Origin: Candidatus Tenebribacter burtonii
GTDB taxonomy: Bacteria; Cloacimonadota; Cloacimonadia; Cloacimonadales; TCS61
Direction: 5' to 3'
Length of the DNA stretch: 32,351 bases
Assembly: GCA_030765625.1 (NCBI GenBank)
Contig: JAVCCF010000091.1
Coordinates: 1 to 32,351 of the forward strand
A model generated the notes under the pieces. It made no database searches, was not told the origin of the DNA, and worked only from the letters and a program-made list of their open reading frames with translations. The stretch's first letter is position 1, and each line of letters opens with the position of its first letter. The position numbers were made by a program, and so were the translations under genes. Of the stretch, positions 2,446-28,267 are shown piece after piece.

Positions 2446-4500
2446 TTATTTTATTAATAACATTTTCTTTGTATAAGTTATGTCTCCAGTTTTAAGCATG
2501 TATAAATATACTCCAGATGTAACAGAATTCCCTAGTTCATCTGTTCCATTCCAAATAACATTATTAATTCCTGTTTCCAAATTTCTAATTTCTAATATCT
2601 TTACTTTCTGTCCTTTCAAGTTATAGATTATTAATTCCGCATCTTTTTTATTTTCAGTGTTTAATGAAAACGAAATTGTTGTTGTTGGATTAAATGGATT
2701 TGGATAATTTCCAATCAATTCAGAGGATGCATAGATTAGATTATTTTCAGCATTACTGTTCAAATCTGTATCATAATTCAAAGTAATCTCGGTAATACCT
2801 AATTCGCTTTCAATTTCCAGAATATCACTGACAATTTCACGGTTGTTTTCGGTAAATAATCCCACAACTATATTAAATGTAAGTATCTCTCCACTTTCCA
2901 GATCGTAAGGAAGAGGAAGATTGAAATCTTCAATATCCCAGGGATTCTCACTGATGGGGAATATGCCATTATCTTCAATGCTGATGATCTCAATTGCTGA
3001 GCTTGAAAGATTTGAGATCGTAAATTGCAAACCATTCAGACAGTTCTCTACTGTCATGAAATTTAATTCTAATGGCTCAATGACTAATCCCCCAAAGTTA
3101 ATATCTGTATCATCGCGTGGTTCTAATTTGAAAGAACCATAAGTGAAATCAATAACACCTCTTATACTAAAAATTATATCGTCTAAAACTGGAACGTAAG
3201 TATAAACTCCTAGTCCACCAATTATGCAAGTTCCGGATTGATCTTCAACTTCCCATTCACCATAACCAAGGTCTTCATTGGAAACTGTTACATTCTGAAT
3301 TTTGGCAAATACACTTTCGTAGTCTTCTGTGAAAGATAGTTCTTCAGCACTTAAAATAATAGGCTCAGGGAGTTCAGATGTTCCTGTTATTTCCATATTA
3401 ATTATATCGGTTATCTCTGTTTTATTATTGTATTCTAAAACAGTACCGGAGATTGTTATCTCATCACCAACCTCTACATCTTGTATTGGATAGATAACAA
3501 TACCATTCCATGCACCTGTTCCATCTTGAATGAAAAAATAACTCTCAAATTTGGCAGTAACAACACCGGAAGTTTCTACCAACTCTCCTTCATGCGGAGA
3601 TGGACCGGAAGTAGAATATTGGAGATCATAGATCGTGTAAGGAGTAATTGGAATAGGTTCAATAATAGAGAATGCAGCATTACTATCATCCCATGGATCT
3701 CCATCTTCGGCATCTGATATAATAATTGCATACCAATCATCGACTAATTGATCAATTGGAATGTTCCATTCCCAGCTACCGTCATCTTCAGTGGAAGCGA
3801 CCAGAACTTCTCTATCTCTATAAACCATTTCAAGTTCTATTTTGATATTTCCTGTAAAATTTATAGATATCCAGGTTATATCGTGAGTAGAACCCTGTTC
3901 CCATTGTTCACCACCATTAGGACTCGCAACAATTATCGTTGGTACTGGAGTTCCTCCGATCGTCTGACCATTATTTAATTCTCCAGGAGTTTCCGGTGCC
4001 GGTTCCTGCCAGATAAAATCACTATAAACAGCTCCTGTCCCCATTAGTTGAAGTGACTGTCCAATCTCAGTTGTGCTTCCTTCCTCCACACCAATATCAG
4101 TTGATGTAACACCATTTGCAGGACCACCTATTGCTTCAAAAGAACCTTCATAACTCAGGAATTGACCCGGAATAAGAATACCTTGGTAATCAATTGCAAT
4201 CCCGTCAGGTTCTCCATTTTGAATACCTTCTTTGTAATAATAGAAAATTGTAAATTCATTAACATTTGCACCGGCTGTAAACTGATTTAAAGATATGGAA
4301 TCATATTCTGATCCATTGTTACCATTATAAAAGGTTACAGTATAATCGGATAAAACATTTCCGGGTATTTCTTCCAGAACAACCTCAACAAATTCACCAA
4401 TATCAGTGCTTGTATTGTCATAATGCAGTTCATTGAGCCAGATATTTTGTGCAGAAAGTAGGGTACTTAATAAAAACATAAACGCTATTATTCTTCTCAT
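2446..4500 (-). CDS. Multidomain secreted protein with type IX C-terminal sorting domain
   Basis: The 684-residue protein starts with a signal peptide (about 1-17, ending LLSAQ). Residues about 18-165 resemble the lamin-tail-like domain common in secreted FCB proteins (WLNELHYDNTSTDIGEFVEV). Residues 194-282 are a Kre9/Knh1-type Ig-like domain (SPNGGEQW, then HDITW). Residues about 288-470 look like an OB-fold, DUF5689-like module (GELVETSGVVTA, FIQDGTGAWNGI, VGDEITISGTV). A further beta domain follows, and the last 95 residues or so are the FlgD-like type IX sorting domain (NYPNPFNPTTTISF, GVYLYMLK, final KKMLLIK). It should be exported through Sec, then across or onto the outer membrane. 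No catalytic site is seen; cell-surface binding is the best guess. The DUF6765-like gene ends 19 bases upstream, so the two may be co-transcribed. Confidence 0.8.
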   Translation of the reverse strand: MRRIIAFMFLLSTLLSAQNIWLNELHYDNTSTDIGEFVEVVLEEIPGNVLSDYTVTFYNGNNGSEYDSISLNQFTAGANVNEFTIFYYYKEGIQNGEPDGIAIDYQGILIPGQFLSYEGSFEAIGGPANGVTSTDIGVEEGSTTEIGQSLQLMGTGAVYSDFIWQEPAPETPGELNNGQTIGGTPVPTIIVASPNGGEQWEQGSTHDITWISINFTGNIKIELEMVYRDREVLVASTEDDGSWEWNIPIDQLVDDWYAIIISDAEDGDPWDDSNAAFSIIEPIPITPYTIYDLQYSTSGPSPHEGELVETSGVVTAKFESYFFIQDGTGAWNGIVIYPIQDVEVGDEITISGTVLEYNNKTEITDIINMEITGTSELPEPIILSAEELSFTEDYESVFAKIQNVTVSNEDLGYGEWEVEDQSGTCIIGGLGVYTYVPVLDDIIFSIRGVIDFTYGSFKLEPRDDTDINFGGLVIEPLELNFMTVENCLNGLQFTISNLSSSAIEIISIEDNGIFPISENPWDIEDFNLPLPYDLESGEILTFNIVVGLFTENNREIVSDILEIESELGITEITLNYDTDLNSNAENNLIYASSELIGNYPNPFNPTTTISFSLNTENKKDAELIIYNLKGQKVKILEIRNLETGINNVIWNGTDELGNSVTSGVYLYMLKTGDITYTKKMLLIK

Positions 4501-18575: not shown

Positions 18576-18600
18576 TTCAGATATATCATTCCCGAGCTCG

Positions 18601-18725
18601 TGTCATCCTGAGTTTGTCGAAGGATGAGGGTGTATGTATCTTGCACATTGTTCTTTGGAAGGATGTCTTTCTAAATAACGAGATTCTTCATGAGAGAATT
18701 CTCCTAAAAATTCCTCAGAATGACA
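18601..18725. repeat. MITE-like element with TGTCATYCTGAG terminal inverted repeats
   Basis: TGTCATCCTGAG (18601-18612) and CTCAGAATGACA (18714-18725) are inverted copies matching at 11 of 12 positions, 125 bases end to end. The left end folds further (CATCCT...AGGATG). I recognise the TCATCCTGAG...CGAAGGATG text as a dispersed repeat seen in many bacterial genomes. No coding frame is inside. It sits between the tautomerase stop and the promoter of the barrel gene. Confidence 0.6.
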
Positions 18726-18770
18726 ATTTTTTCTTTATCCAATATATTTACCCCAAATAACAACATTCAC

Positions 18771-18833: not shown

Positions 18834-21800
18834 ATGAAAATAAAAATTGTAATTGTCATTATTTTTCTGCAGGTTGCATTATCTGCCTATAATTTCTTCT
18901 CTCCAATAATTAAATGGGAAAGGTTAAATGTAACCGATACTGAAGCATCAATAGAACTATCTACAACAAATATAATTATCAATTCAGAAAGAGTTTATAA
19001 CGATTCGCTTGTTTTTAATTTGGATAAATACAGCATCGATTATAAAAAAGGGATGATCACTTTTCACGAAACTTTAGGAAATTGTATTATAGAGTATTAT
19101 GTCTATCCTGAGCAACTTATAAACCGGTTTTATCTCTTTCAAACGCAAGAATATTCTGATACAACAGAAGTGAAGATAACAAAATCAAGCTCTCAACAAT
19201 TTTATAACAACACTGATCTTGATATTACTGGAAGTAAAACCATTTCCATATCAGTTGCTAACAACGAAGATTTTGATCTGGATCAATCACTCTTCTTAAA
19301 AATCAATGGTAAATTAAGTGATGGGATGAGTATTGAAGCACAACTTTCTGACAGTCAAACTCCCATAACTCCGGAAGGGGATTCCCGTGAACTTAGTAGT
19401 CTGGACAAAATATTTATACGCTTGTACGGAGAAAAATATGAACTTGCTTTTGGTGATCTTGAAATGGACTTTGACAATTCATCTTTTATGAAATACTCGT
19501 CTAAATTTGAAGGGTTAAAGGCAGGATGGCTTGGGAAGAATAAAGTAACAGGAGCGTTAGCGGTTTCAAAAGGTAAAAAGATTACAGATTCATTTGACGG
19601 CGTAGAAGCCAAACAGGGCCCCTATTATTTATCAGTTGAAGGAATTTTGGGAATTCAGGTAGTTCCAGGATCAGAGGAAGTCTTTTTAAATGGATTACAG
19701 ATGCAGCGTGGAACAGATTATTCGATAGATTATTCGGAAGGCGGGATAACATTTTCTAATAAACATTTTATTTCTTCAACAAATAAAATTCGTGTTACAT
19801 TCCAGTATTCAGACGAAAATTATAATCAGAATATGTATCTTGCTTCATCAGAAGTAAATGTTACAGATAAATTTAAGATTTATAATGATATGATCATCCA
19901 GAACGATGACAAGAACAATCCTCTATTGGATAGCTTTTCTGATGAGGAAATTGATTCTTTAGAGACTGCCGGCGATGAAACTGCGTGGGTGAGTGGAATA
20001 TCAGAAGTTGAAGATGGTGAATATGAACTTTCAGAAGATGGATTGTATTACTATTATGTTGGCAGCACAATAGTAGGACATTATAATATTCACTTTGAAT
20101 ATATGGGAATCGACAATGGAGATTACGATTACAATTCCGAAGGAGCTTTTTACGAATATGTTGGTGTTGGAAATGGTAGCTATCTTCCACTTAAGAAACT
20201 TCCATTACCACAGAGTAAATTAAATTATGATTTGAGTTTTAAATATGAAGGAGAAAGTTACATTTTAATAGCAGAGGGTTTGTTCACTTCCGATGATAAG
20301 AATACATTTTCCGCTGTTGATGACGGCGATAATAATGATTTTGCTACCCGTTTAAGCGCTCAAGTTTACCCTGAATATGATAAAATAGAGCCTAATTTGA
20401 AATTAATGTACGAAAGACTAGGCGGAAATATTTCCACTTTTTCCCAACTCCAAAGTGCTGCCGATGCTCACGAATTCACTCAATTACCGGATAGCTTGAA
20501 CAGTGAAGAATATTCAGCGGAATTAAGTATGAATATTCTGGATTTCTATTCTCCTTTTATTATTTATAAGCAGAAGAAAATAGTTGATTTTGCTTATCAG
20601 CAGTATATTTCAGTTACTTCCAATCTAAAACAAAAAAAGCTATTTCCACAAATTTATCACCGTTATCTTTTAGTAAAACAAACTGCAGATGATCAGCAAA
20701 TTAATGATTCTAAAATTGAACAACACGATTTAAAAGGAAAATACAGTTTTGGGAAATTTGCCTACGGTTTGGATTATTTTATTCGCAATAATGAATATGA
20801 AATTACGGAAGAGAGTAAATTTTTCGAGAGAAATGAAAACTGGAAAACTCAACTTGAAACTGCTAATTTGAAATGGATAACATCGCGGATATACTTCCAG
20901 ATGAAAAATGATCGGCAGCAATCGAGTAATGATCAAGGTTATATAACTCAACATGATGAAACATCCTATACATATGGGATCGAAACCTTTTTAAATACTG
21001 TCAAACATCGGATAAATGTTGCTTTCACACACCGGCAAATGAAAGATAATAAACAAGAGATAACTAATGATTTTGATATAGCTGACATCTCTGCAAGAAA
21101 TCTTTTTTTTAAAGATTTTGTAAACGTAAACTCCAATTATTCACTAAAGAATGTTGAATTTTTTCCTAAAATAAAAGAATTTCAGTATGTAGGAGAAGAT
21201 ATAGGATCCTATGATATTGATACCCTTTTTGTAGGTTATTTCCAGGGAGATTATGATTGGGAAGTTATTGCGGTAGATTACGAAAATCCTGAAATGTCGG
21301 TGGAAATCAATGCCAGCCTATCAGTGCATCTAACACCAAAAATGATAACGAAATCATTTTTAAAAAAATTCCAAACAGAAACATATGTTATGATAACAGA
21401 AAATTCTAGAGAAGATGATAAAAAGTTAGTTTATTTTTTAAATCCGAGTGTATTGATGGATACACTAACAACGATCTTTGGTAGAAGAATTCTGCATCAA
21501 ACTTTCTCGTTTGACATAATAGAGAGAAAACTTGTTTCCAAACTGGGTTATAAGTTAGAGGAAACGCTAGATAGCCGTTATAATGAAGAAACAGCAAAAA
21601 AAAATCAGGAAACATGGGATGCTGAATTAGGTATTTTAGTATTTGAAAACACGAACATGGAACTTCATTTTAATCGTATAGGAGAAGAAGATTCACATTA
21701 CAACTCGCAAATAGAAATAGATCAAATAAAGATGGATATTCAGAATAGACTATCTTCCTATATAACATTAAGATCATCAGCTTCTTATTCATTTGAAGAA

Positions 21801-22109
21801 GGGAGCGATGATGCAGATGACAATAGGTATACTATCAGCGCATTAAAATTTGAAGAATCAGCATCCTACTTCTTTAAACGAAAATACAGATTCTTCGCTA
21901 AAGCTAGCTATAAAAGAAATTACCGTGATGGTTCGGGATTTTTAACCTTTCTTGCAGATAAAAAGGAAGGAAATATTTTCAAATGGGATATTACTATGAA
22001 TTACCGTATGAGCAATTACACATCACTAAATCTGCAATATTCCGGCAATAGCTATCCTGAAGAAAAACAGGTTCATAAACTTAGCTTGGAAGTGAAAGCA
22101 GAGTTCTAA
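18834..22109 (+). CDS. Very large predicted outer-membrane beta-barrel protein, uncharacterised
   Basis: The 1091 residues begin with a signal peptide (about 1-18, ending ALSA). Residues about 20-110 form a beta domain (WERLNVTDTEASIELS). Residues about 125-350 hold a conserved core I recall from uncharacterised FCB-group proteins: GSKTISISVANNEDFDLDQS, LSDSQTPITPEGDS, SSLDKIFIRLYG, AFGDLEMDF, SVEGILGIQVVPGSEEVFLNG, IDYSEGGITFSN and FQYSDENYNQNMYLA. From about 440 on, alternating-hydrophobicity strands predominate, and the protein ends ...KLSLEVKAEF with the terminal aromatic residue typical of outer-membrane barrels. No enzyme motif is visible. A TTGACT box lies upstream. gmhA follows with its own promoter-like sequence. 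Membrane location is well supported by pattern; function is unknown. Confidence 0.7.
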   Translation: MKIKIVIVIIFLQVALSAYNFFSPIIKWERLNVTDTEASIELSTTNIIINSERVYNDSLVFNLDKYSIDYKKGMITFHETLGNCIIEYYVYPEQLINRFYLFQTQEYSDTTEVKITKSSSQQFYNNTDLDITGSKTISISVANNEDFDLDQSLFLKINGKLSDGMSIEAQLSDSQTPITPEGDSRELSSLDKIFIRLYGEKYELAFGDLEMDFDNSSFMKYSSKFEGLKAGWLGKNKVTGALAVSKGKKITDSFDGVEAKQGPYYLSVEGILGIQVVPGSEEVFLNGLQMQRGTDYSIDYSEGGITFSNKHFISSTNKIRVTFQYSDENYNQNMYLASSEVNVTDKFKIYNDMIIQNDDKNNPLLDSFSDEEIDSLETAGDETAWVSGISEVEDGEYELSEDGLYYYYVGSTIVGHYNIHFEYMGIDNGDYDYNSEGAFYEYVGVGNGSYLPLKKLPLPQSKLNYDLSFKYEGESYILIAEGLFTSDDKNTFSAVDDGDNNDFATRLSAQVYPEYDKIEPNLKLMYERLGGNISTFSQLQSAADAHEFTQLPDSLNSEEYSAELSMNILDFYSPFIIYKQKKIVDFAYQQYISVTSNLKQKKLFPQIYHRYLLVKQTADDQQINDSKIEQHDLKGKYSFGKFAYGLDYFIRNNEYEITEESKFFERNENWKTQLETANLKWITSRIYFQMKNDRQQSSNDQGYITQHDETSYTYGIETFLNTVKHRINVAFTHRQMKDNKQEITNDFDIADISARNLFFKDFVNVNSNYSLKNVEFFPKIKEFQYVGEDIGSYDIDTLFVGYFQGDYDWEVIAVDYENPEMSVEINASLSVHLTPKMITKSFLKKFQTETYVMITENSREDDKKLVYFLNPSVLMDTLTTIFGRRILHQTFSFDIIERKLVSKLGYKLEETLDSRYNEETAKKNQETWDAELGILVFENTNMELHFNRIGEEDSHYNSQIEIDQIKMDIQNRLSSYITLRSSASYSFEEGSDDADDNRYTISALKFEESASYFFKRKYRFFAKASYKRNYRDGSGFLTFLADKKEGNIFKWDITMNYRMSNYTSLNLQYSGNSYPEEKQVHKLSLEVKAEF

Positions 22110-24268: not shown

Positions 24269-26188
24269 ATGAAAACTAATTCAAAAATTTTGTATGTAAT
24301 TCTAATGATCATTGTAACAACATCAATAAGCTATGCTGCTAATCTTACCTCTAATGGGCATAGTAATGGAAATGGTGGCCCAGCAAACTTAAGACCTGTA
24401 AATTGGATCGAAACTGATTCTGGATTACCTCAAGGCTTTGGTGTTGGACAGATCTCAATCGGGATGAATGATCAGGAATCTCTATGGGCAATGGCAATCG
24501 ACAATACGGGTGCAGTTGCAGATAATTTTACTAGATCAACAGATAGTGGAGAAAATTGGACTGCTGGAACATTCAATGCCGGTACAGGACTTTCTCAGAT
24601 TTTTGCTGTTGACGACATGACTTGCTGGGCTGTATTTAATACCGGAGCTGATCAAGGACTTTATAAAACAACAGATGGTGGAGCGAACTGGATTAACATG
24701 AATGCAGGTTATGGTGCTTCTTCTTTTACAAATGTCATTCATTTTTTCAATGACAATGATGGTTTTGCTCAAGGGGATCCAATAGATGGATATTATGAAC
24801 TTTATACTACTACAAATGGTGGTGACAATTGGACTCGCGTACCAGAAGCTGATATTCCTGTGCCAACAACTGGTGAATTTGGAATTACAGGTAACTATTA
24901 TGCAGTTGGTGATAACATCTGGTATGGAACAAACCTAGGTAGGATCTTTTACTCAACAGATAAGGGATATACGTGGGATGTAACTATGACACCTTTTGGA
25001 TCTGCCAATACTGTAACTTGCATATTTTCAGATGCCTTAAATGGATTTGCTTTCAGATCTTATCTTAATATGGGAATTGAGCCTGAAATAGATATTACAA
25101 CAGATGGTGGACAAACATATACACCTTTATTTGTTACTGGTGATATGTACGCAAGATGGTTTTCTCATGTTCCAGGCACGACATCTACTTTTGTTGGATC
25201 TTCTTCCGAGCCTGGTTTTGAAGGAGCTTCTTATAGTGAAGATGGTGGAAATACATGGATTACACTTAATAGTGGAGTAGCAATTCAAGCAACTGCATTC
25301 CTTGATGCTGAAACAGGTTGGGCAGGCAATTGGGCTGGAGCAACAAGTGGCGGTATGTATATCTTTGACGGAAACTTGAATGTGATCACGGGTGAAATCG
25401 AGGGTACAGTTACAGATCTTGATGAAGGATTTGCCATTGAGGGTGCTGTTATCACTTTAGGAACATTCTCTACAACTACTGATGTAAACGGTGATTACAA
25501 TATGATAATGGATATAGGAACGTTTACATTGACCAGCGAAATTGATGGTTATGAAGTTTATACACAAGATAATGTGGTTATTGAAGAAGATGAAATTACA
25601 ACTGTTGATTTCCAAATGCAAAACCTTTACCTTCCACCTCAAAATCTAACCTATATATTTAATGCACCAAATGTTGTTTTAAATTGGGATGTTCCTGTTG
25701 GCTCAATTGGACTTTCTGGATATAAAGTATATCGTAATGGAGCTATGCTCTCTGAGATCAATAATGTATCAGCTACTTTATACGTTGATCAAAACGTTCC
25801 AACAGGGAATTATACATACTACTTAACAGCAATGTATGGAACACATGAATCTGTTCCTTCCAATGAAGTGGAGGTAGAAGTTGTTGATGCCGGCAACATT
25901 TTACCAGCAAATGGAACTACTTTAAATGGGAATGTTCCAAATCCATTCAATCCGACAACCACTATCAGCTTTTCGCTTGAAACAGCTGGTTATGTTAATA
26001 TTGATATTTACAATGTGAAAGGTGAAAAAGTACGTACGCTTGTTGATGAAAACTTAGAAGCAACTTCTCATAGTGTTGTTTGGGATGGAAAAGACGATCT
26101 TGGAAGAACTACATCAAGTGGTGTTTATTTTTACAAAATGAAAACAGGTTCGTTTACTTCAACTAAAAAAATGGTGTTAATGAAATAA
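24269..26188 (+). CDS. Secreted BNR/YCF48-like propeller protein with type IX sorting domain
   Basis: The 639-residue protein has a signal peptide (about 1-23, ending SYA). Residues about 45-370 carry at least six Asp-box-like motifs (TDSGENW, TDGGANW, TNGGDNW, TDKGYTW, TDGGQTY, EDGGNTW), as in YCF48/sialidase-type beta-propellers. Residues about 375-450 are a carboxypeptidase-regulatory-like domain (GEIEGTVTD, DVNGDYNM). Residues about 455-540 are fibronectin-III-like (NVVLNWDVP, GYKVYRNG). The last 90 residues or so are the FlgD-like type IX domain (VPNPFNPTTTISFSL, GVYFYKMK, final KKMVLMK). Surface binding or recognition is likely; no hydrolase residues were recognised. The neighbouring convergent gene encodes a comparable secreted protein. 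Confidence 0.8.
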   Translation: MKTNSKILYVILMIIVTTSISYAANLTSNGHSNGNGGPANLRPVNWIETDSGLPQGFGVGQISIGMNDQESLWAMAIDNTGAVADNFTRSTDSGENWTAGTFNAGTGLSQIFAVDDMTCWAVFNTGADQGLYKTTDGGANWINMNAGYGASSFTNVIHFFNDNDGFAQGDPIDGYYELYTTTNGGDNWTRVPEADIPVPTTGEFGITGNYYAVGDNIWYGTNLGRIFYSTDKGYTWDVTMTPFGSANTVTCIFSDALNGFAFRSYLNMGIEPEIDITTDGGQTYTPLFVTGDMYARWFSHVPGTTSTFVGSSSEPGFEGASYSEDGGNTWITLNSGVAIQATAFLDAETGWAGNWAGATSGGMYIFDGNLNVITGEIEGTVTDLDEGFAIEGAVITLGTFSTTTDVNGDYNMIMDIGTFTLTSEIDGYEVYTQDNVVIEEDEITTVDFQMQNLYLPPQNLTYIFNAPNVVLNWDVPVGSIGLSGYKVYRNGAMLSEINNVSATLYVDQNVPTGNYTYYLTAMYGTHESVPSNEVEVEVVDAGNILPANGTTLNGNVPNPFNPTTTISFSLETAGYVNIDIYNVKGEKVRTLVDENLEATSHSVVWDGKDDLGRTTSSGVYFYKMKTGSFTSTKKMVLMK

Positions 26189-26311: not shown

Positions 26312-28267
26312 TTACTTCATAAGGATCATTTTTCTGGTAAAGGAGTAGTTAGTAGATTTCATTTTGTAAAGATATACTCCACTAGAAACAGGTTTGTTAG
26401 AATTATCATTACCATCCCAGCTGGTAATATGTTCGCCAGTTTCTTTAATCTCATTTATCAGTGTTTTAACAAGTTGACCCTTTAAATTGTAAACTTCTAA
26501 TGTTACGTATCCTGTCTCTATTATTGAATAAGAAATATTTGTAACCGGATTAAATGGATTTGGATAGTTGTGCCCAAGTACTGCATTTGTAATTACGATA
26601 TTTTCAGAACTTACAATTGGTTCTAAAGAAAAATCTATTCCAGTTGTGCTATTACCGGAAGTGACTTCTACATCATCTATTGTTACCTGCTCATAACCAT
26701 CAAGAGAAGCTGTTACATCGTATGTACCGGGAGTAAGTATAATGGAATAATCTCCATTTATTTCCGGATTCACAATCATTCCACCCGCTTCTATATCAAC
26801 ATCTGTGACAATACCACTTCCACCGTTTAATACAACATTTCCTTCTACGTACCCATCGTTTATTACACCCAGCAAACCTTCAAAGGTAATATTCTGAGCA
26901 TAAATATCACTACCACCATTTCTGCTGTCTTCCCAGGATGCAATGATCTGATTATTATTAAATTGACCTGCTACACTATGAACTTTGTTAGAAGCTACTG
27001 AACACATCATTACAAAATTTTCTTCCCATACAAAGTTTCCATCCGAATCAAGGCGCATGGCTTTTGTAGAGTAATCTATACTGGTGATTTCTTCATCATA
27101 AAAAACAATTACGTCATCATTTGCTTTACGAACCGCAAATGGTAAGACATAAAGAGTTGAAATGTTAATGATATTATTACCGTTTGCTCCCCACAACAAG
27201 TTTCCGCTAGCATCGAGTTTTTGTCCTGTAATTCCATGAATATTTTGATTACCATCTGTTTGTGACCAATAAGTTGTTAATTCATCATTTACAGAATTAT
27301 ATACAGATTCAGGATAATAACTCTGACGGTTCATTTCGGTAGAAAGCTGTGTGCCGTTTGCAACAAAAGCAACTGTGCCATCCGAATTCACATGCTGTAC
27401 AAACGGATAAGAAATTGTTCCACCTCCACGACTGTCGTGCCAAGAAATAAAACAGCCATTATTTTCATCGGAAATTATATTGAAAACTTGTGTCCATGCA
27501 GAGATCCCACCAGCATTGGAAACGACAGTATCGCTTGCCCAAAATGCATCTCCATCATTATCAAATTTCTGAATGTAACAATGACGAGTTGGCGCCCAGG
27601 CAGGACCAGAATCATGGAAAAATTTTAATAAAATGTGGTCATTCTCTACTGCAAAAGGTTGTGGCCATGAGTATGTATCAGCACAACTCAGTGTTATACC
27701 GGTAGTACCCCAGACAAGAGTTCCATTATTTGCAATTCTTTGCATAATGATCGCATCATCTGACTGCCAGGTGATAACCGCACCACCTTCTGATGTTACA
27801 CAAACTTTTGGCGCTACATCGAAAGCAATAGAATTTGAAAGTTCAATCCCATCATCTCCCCATACAAAAGAACTATCAGGCGAAATTTTATAAGCGTAAA
27901 TATTGTTATTTCCACTATTGCGGATGTCTTGAAAAACCAAGATTGCATTGTTGTCCTCATCGACTGTCATATCCCAATCTGTAAGCCAGCTCATTGCAGG
28001 ATGATCACTGATAACGATTCCATTATGATCCCATAACTCATTACCCTGGGAATCTAATCTTTGTAGTCGTACATCATAATTTCCAGAATCATTTGAGAAC
28101 CAACCGATATAAGTGTCTCCTGTGGAACTTGTGGCAACTTTAGGTATTGCCTGCTCACCACCAAGATCACAGATCGCATTGTTCATTGCCGGATCATTAC
28201 TCCATTCTGCAGTTAGGCTTACTGCTATGAGCATAATAAACAAAGAAAATACAATTGTCTTTTTCAT
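26312..28267 (-). CDS. Secreted repeat protein (predicted propeller) with type IX sorting domain
   Basis: The 651-residue protein has a signal peptide (about 1-19, ending SLTA). Residues about 25-460 hold at least seven degenerate repeats around RLDSQGNELWDHNG-like motifs (KISPDSSFVWGDDG, RIANNGTLVWGTTG, KLDASGNLLWGANG, RLDSDGNFVWEEN), which suggests a beta-propeller of 6-8 blades. A PEGA/carboxypeptidase-regulatory-like domain follows (GYVEGNVVLNGG, NGDYSIILTPGTYDVTA). The last 90 residues or so are the type IX domain (NYPNPFNPVTNISYS, GVYLYKMK, final KMILMK). It should be secreted to the cell surface. AAAAGGAGAGGGAAA precedes ATG. The TrmB gene ends 28 bases upstream on the same strand, so read-through is possible. 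Function unknown. Confidence 0.78.
   Translation of the reverse strand: MKKTIVFSLFIMLIAVSLTAEWSNDPAMNNAICDLGGEQAIPKVATSSTGDTYIGWFSNDSGNYDVRLQRLDSQGNELWDHNGIVISDHPAMSWLTDWDMTVDEDNNAILVFQDIRNSGNNNIYAYKISPDSSFVWGDDGIELSNSIAFDVAPKVCVTSEGGAVITWQSDDAIIMQRIANNGTLVWGTTGITLSCADTYSWPQPFAVENDHILLKFFHDSGPAWAPTRHCYIQKFDNDGDAFWASDTVVSNAGGISAWTQVFNIISDENNGCFISWHDSRGGGTISYPFVQHVNSDGTVAFVANGTQLSTEMNRQSYYPESVYNSVNDELTTYWSQTDGNQNIHGITGQKLDASGNLLWGANGNNIINISTLYVLPFAVRKANDDVIVFYDEEITSIDYSTKAMRLDSDGNFVWEENFVMMCSVASNKVHSVAGQFNNNQIIASWEDSRNGGSDIYAQNITFEGLLGVINDGYVEGNVVLNGGSGIVTDVDIEAGGMIVNPEINGDYSIILTPGTYDVTASLDGYEQVTIDDVEVTSGNSTTGIDFSLEPIVSSENIVITNAVLGHNYPNPFNPVTNISYSIIETGYVTLEVYNLKGQLVKTLINEIKETGEHITSWDGNDNSNKPVSSGVYLYKMKSTNYSFTRKMILMK

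Follow-up and report, generated by a model that had tools for sequence, protein, structure and literature searches.

The gene for a predicted giant barrel and its locus

The window analysed here is a 32,351-nt stretch of DNA from Candidatus Tenebribacter burtonii (Cloacimonadota), and the gene of interest within it is a single open reading frame, with an ATG start and a TAA stop, that encodes a protein of 1091 aa (Table 1), predicted to form an outer-membrane barrel and referred to below as the giant barrel. An earlier note on this DNA had described a 1091-residue gene with a signal peptide, conserved core motifs and a C-terminal Phe. The reading frame proved exact and all five motifs are present, namely GSKTISISVANN (aa 133-144), LSDSQTPITPEG, SSLDKIFIRLYG, VPGSEEVFLNG and IDYSEGGITFSN. 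The N-terminus, MKIKIVIVIIFLQVALSA followed by YN, was recognized by eye as a predicted Sec signal peptide. The N-terminal core is strongly conserved, and the beta-rich C-terminus ends in a conserved EVKAEF whose last residue, Phe, is beta-signal-like. In an alignment of 21 family members, mean column identity is 50%, with invariant residues along the whole length and a conserved end of the form E-KAEF.

The gene was found in 52 of 60 related whole genomes searched, including 36 of the 37 with a completeness of 90% or more. It occurs as one copy per genome, some copies being split by contig ends, and it is retained at full length down to approximately 33% identity. Because of this conservation, we regard the reading frame as a real gene. 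Its neighbours in the window are pspC, gmhA and dtd, and not genes of the type IX secretion system (T9SS) machinery. Three secreted proteins encoded elsewhere in the window carry a T9SS type A sorting domain. A promoter scan gave results scarcely above chance. The intergenic region before the gene (18600-18730) contains a hairpin-like sequence, gtcatcctgag...ctcagaatgac, that by eye resembles a dispersed repeat.

Table 1. Features of the window, with predicted parts of the giant barrel
Feature	Position	Strand	Basis
T9SS type A cargo protein	2446-4500	-	TIGR04183, above curated cut-off
Whole gene for the predicted giant outer-membrane barrel, SprA-related, 1091 aa	18834-22109	+	ORF, conservation, AlphaFold2
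Predicted signal peptide, aa 1-18, cleavage between LSA and YN	18834-18887	+	Sequence by eye; helix 2-21 in AlphaFold2 model
Small beta-domain copy 1, SprA-type DY-IDY-G-I-F, aa ~26-90, periplasmic by strand count	18909-19103	+	hhalign, AlphaFold2
Predicted barrel strands 1-8, aa 128-255, with GSKTISISVANN, LSDSQTPITPEG and SSLDKIFIRLYG	19215-19598	+	AlphaFold2; collinear with SprA 155-303
Second SprA-type small beta-domain, aa ~275-325, VPGSEEVFLNG...IDYSEGGITF	19656-19808	+	hhalign; TIGR04189 matches in relatives
Predicted strands 9-10, aa 330-363	19821-19922	+	AlphaFold2
Third small domain, repeated Y-YVG--G-Y motifs, aa ~370-456, periplasmic by strand count	19941-20201	+	AlphaFold2; conservation
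Predicted C-terminal barrel part, ~28-30 strands, aa 461-1091	20214-22106	+	Conservation, AlphaFold2; unalignable to SprA
T9SS type A cargo protein	24269-26188	+	TIGR04183, above curated cut-off
T9SS type A cargo protein	26312-28267	-	TIGR04183, above curated cut-off

Predicted structure and relation to SprA

An AlphaFold2 model built with 64 homologues (mean pLDDT 85.8, pTM 0.72) predicts a large outer-membrane barrel, as had been supposed from the sequence, with approximately 38-40 long strands in three runs of eight, two and about 28-30 (the last at aa 461-1090). The total becomes 40 when the strand number has to be even, with the chain ending in the periplasm, and residues 763-785 and 807-814 are counted as two strands. 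The chain may close into a single barrel, and the three small beta-domains would be periplasmic if strand 1 begins on that side. The supposition that a barrel is fused to a periplasmic beta domain was not supported, as the core is predicted to be largely barrel, with about ten strands, two small beta-domains and a third domain. A second model, of a 987-aa Latescibacterota relative (pLDDT 70.7), reproduced the N-terminal half (eight strands, a domain, two strands, a domain) and has approximately 37 strands overall, with a C-terminal half of low confidence. Strand amphipathicity was only partly informative, with 40% of strands above the 95% null over their full length.

When the window model was compared to the PDB using Foldseek, the top three matches were SprA structures (8gl6, 8gl8 and 6h3j; E 1e-11 to 3e-9), and their TM-scores were low, at 0.25-0.30. 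Barrels of a general kind, BtuB and LptD among them, came next. With the second, weaker model, SprA did not come first and ranked 26th and 32nd; FimD was only a weak structural match to this model. No confident match to a porin or usher was obtained with the window protein, and its predicted fold is not a soluble one. LptD, TonB-dependent/SusC and usher barrels have a general large-barrel fold similarity to the giant barrel, but they rank below SprA for the window model, have no family match to the protein, and none of their accessory domains were recognized in it.

Searches of Pfam, NCBIfam and the PDB with the 1091-aa sequence returned no family that covers it, and no description of the family was found in the open-access literature, which agrees with the view that it has no assigned function. 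The curated cut-offs of PF14349 and TIGR04189 (the NCBIfam SprA model) were not reached, the 1091-aa protein matching neither model, and TIGR04189 matched the SprA-type small domain in five of seven distant relatives at no more than 39 bits, against a cut-off of 200. No match to POTRA or Omp85 domains or to LptD domains was seen in Pfam or NCBIfam at E ≤ 10, nor to the fimbrial usher domain of Pfam at the same limit. Likewise, Pfam yielded no polysaccharide-export family, and Pfam and NCBIfam yielded no peptidoglycan-binding or adhesin domain. A weak match of about 50 residues to the phage-tail family DUF2460/TIGR02217 and to tail-tube proteins lies in the small beta-domain. Phage-tail identity was rejected, since the match is sub-threshold (E ~6e-4) and falls on the same motif as the SprA-type domain; a short beta motif is all that is held in common, with no function implied.

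Profile comparisons were carried out using hhalign. With small alignments, only aa 275-357 matched SprA (Prob 89.6). With FCB-wide profiles built from 82 giant-barrel family members and 36 SprA proteins, the core (aa 125-327) was collinear with SprA 155-449 (Prob 96-97, E 5e-9 to 1.6e-10), aa 262-345 matched SprA 604-678 (Prob 98), aa 30-100 matched SprA 594-662 (Prob 97), and the two copies of the small beta-domain matched each other (Prob 98.9). A reversed SprA profile gave at most 0.5% and the profile of an unrelated Omp85 barrel 0.2%. Judged by these profiles, the first third of the giant barrel is a distant relative of SprA. Between the C-terminal barrel and SprA no sequence relationship was detectable (Prob 24%), and homology of that part is unsupported. 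Of the families that the earlier note had singled out for comparison, SprA matched through the core of the giant barrel (Prob 96-98), while LptD, Omp85/TamA and the ushers did not match.

SprA has been described as the sole 36-strand giant channel of the FCB superphylum (PMC10994853, PMC12611786). The giant barrel resembles SprA/Sov (TIGR04189, PF14349; PDB 6h3i, 6h3j, 8gl6) in its collinear N-terminal strands, in its 'DY...IDY.G.I.F' small domain, which occurs more than once, in its prediction as one giant barrel, in its single copy and in its FCB distribution. It differs in being half as long (about 950-1200 aa vs 2000-2500 aa), in lacking the PF14349 region, in a C-terminal barrel that cannot be aligned and perhaps in having more strands (~38-40 predicted vs 36). 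It is also not the organism's own SprA, which is ruled out by that unalignable barrel and by a separate full-length SprA ORF of 2006 aa on another contig (C131) of the same genome. All 50 good genomes examined from the order likewise have a separate full-length SprA.

Distribution and co-occurrence with type IX secretion

Across approximately 85,000 species genomes, a scan recovered 192 relatives of the giant barrel. The best 80 of these are mostly from Cloacimonadota, the remainder being from Latescibacterota, Bacteroidota, Fibrobacterota, Poribacteria, WOR-3, Muiribacteriota and Margulisbacteria, and most of these relatives are 850-1200 aa long with the same conserved N-terminal core. The earlier note had placed relatives across FCB phyla, and this was correct: the giant barrel is found as a single copy in nearly all Cloacimonadota genomes tested and in 70 of 71 Fibrobacterota genomes (SprA also being present in 70 of 71), with strong homologues, by profile search, in 94 of 148 sampled Bacteroidota genomes, and more rarely in Latescibacterota, Poribacteria and WOR-3.

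In the Bacteroidota sample, presence of the giant barrel is nested within that of SprA. Both proteins occur in 94 genomes, SprA only in 23, neither in 31, and the giant barrel without SprA in none (Fisher p 1.4e-17, not corrected for shared ancestry). The giant barrel is not an obligatory part of the T9SS, because 23 of the 117 SprA-bearing Bacteroidota do without it. Nor is the link strict in the other direction, since four of 23 genomes with distant relatives have no SprA, namely one WOR-3 MAG, one Muiribacteriota genome and two Margulisbacteria. These four carry distant core-type relatives only, several per genome in Margulisbacteria, and the core module may therefore predate or reach beyond the T9SS. 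The co-occurrence with type IX genes that the earlier note had proposed as a check was found in part, in the 94 vs 0 Bacteroidota genomes, with the 23 SprA-only genomes and the SprA-less genomes as exceptions. Among the SprA-less genomes, L146 and L147 (Margulisiibacteriota) and L143 (Muiribacteriota) carry proteins with the SprA-type core or small beta-domain, which may reveal the origin of the module.

The suggested tie to type IX secretion is upheld by the SprA homology, the co-occurrence and the three cargo proteins of the window; a role as a secretion, assembly or surface-display component is itself a proposal. In addition to SprA and T9SS cargo, the window's own genome contains roughly ten genes of the PorV family. 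A search for the GldM motor domain (PF12081) gave no match in this genome, hinting at a divergent or different T9SS energy source in Cloacimonadota.

Gene neighbourhoods and candidate function

Within the window's family the usual gene order is pspC, giant barrel, gmhA, dtd, HAD and L,D-transpeptidase, the HAD gene being missing from the window's own locus. Given that the giant barrel here precedes gmhA, of the heptose pathway, and lies near lpxB, it could serve to export not protein but a glycan or lipid of the cell surface (LPS, O-antigen or exopolysaccharide). We consider this decidedly improbable, as the gmhA neighbourhood is confined to part of Cloacimonadota, none being observed in Cloacimonadaceae, Fibrobacterota or Bacteroidota, and as LptD and the polysaccharide-export families did not match. 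Cloacimonadaceae, another family of the order, instead have the arrangement TPR lipoprotein, S24 peptidase, giant barrel and TSUP permease.

In several other phyla the giant barrel adjoins an Omp85 gene. At locus L125, an NHL propeller lipoprotein, the giant barrel and a three-POTRA Omp85 follow each other with gaps of 11 and 83 nt, and in Fibrobacterota and Latescibacterota the Omp85 comes directly after the giant barrel, either a few bases away or overlapping it. An NHL propeller protein is also encoded directly upstream in one Poribacteria genome and three Bacteroidota genomes (L149, L159 and L163), and apart from these three the Bacteroidota loci have no neighbour in common. That such a tight cassette recurs suggests an outer-membrane complex of several proteins. 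A single neighbourhood that would explain the giant barrel was rejected, since the neighbours change from clade to clade. In the Fibrobacterota loci L130-L138, the gene directly upstream (c14) encodes a conserved lipoprotein-like protein of ~300-380 aa that belongs to no known family. By eye it had been taken for a propeller, and this was dropped after hhalign to NHL proteins gave 1.6%, a weak test in that the NHL set comprised three proteins, the first row being a non-propeller protein from L127.

The adjoining Omp85 with POTRA domains, together with a propeller upstream at L125 that is reminiscent of BamA with BamB, raises the possibility that the giant barrel belongs to a dedicated outer-membrane assembly or insertion complex of the BAM or TAM kind. 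Like the Omp85 proteins BamA and TamA, it is predicted to combine an outer-membrane barrel with periplasmic domains. However, it has no POTRA domain, no sequence similarity to Omp85 (hhalign 0.2%) and far more predicted strands, no Omp85 neighbour was seen at the Cloacimonadota or Bacteroidota loci, and the neighbouring Omp85 could equally be the giant barrel's own assembler, making such a complex an improbable explanation.

The giant barrel may also be structural, acting, without transport of its own, as an outer-membrane anchor or assembly hub by which surface proteins are organized or periplasmic lipoproteins linked to the outer membrane. Consistent with such a scaffold are the conserved domains on the predicted periplasmic side, the adjoining NHL propeller proteins and TPR lipoprotein, the large SlpA/SDBC barrel of Deinococcus among the Foldseek matches, and the gene directly upstream at L126 (3983-5863), which encodes a fusion of a PorV/PorQ-family barrel with carboxypeptidase-regulatory-like and OmpA domains. 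The common core is, however, specifically that of a protein-conducting channel, and a peptidoglycan-binding or adhesin domain is absent from the protein; a purely structural role is in our view unlikely.

We tentatively favour, at somewhat short of even chances, an auxiliary SprA-related gated channel of the outer membrane, forming a separate family that is kept beside SprA. The chain would be exported by Sec and then inserted by an Omp85/BAM machine as a barrel of roughly 36-40 strands. The N-terminal and inserted small beta-domains would lie on the periplasmic side, where they might gate the lumen and provide the docking site for a periplasmic partner, which in several phyla could be the NHL propeller protein and in Cloacimonadaceae possibly the TPR lipoprotein. 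The barrel would then act as a second SprA-like gated conduit through which a large substrate, either a T9SS-linked protein or a surface polymer, leaves the periplasm. A bolder version of the gated channel holds that this single chain, with 38-40 strands, exceeds the 36-strand SprA and constitutes a second ancient FCB translocon, a sister of SprA inherited together with it since early in FCB evolution and working with a periplasmic propeller and a dedicated Omp85 assembler; taken as a whole, we think this rather unlikely.

If a second, compact and widespread relative of SprA does exist in FCB, the T9SS channel would be part of a wider superfamily, the compact relative would serve as a smaller model of the construction and gating of giant barrels, and an unstudied outer-membrane function would be indicated in major phyla. 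Because the giant barrel is present in many Bacteroidota genomes, these proposals are testable in genetically tractable strains.
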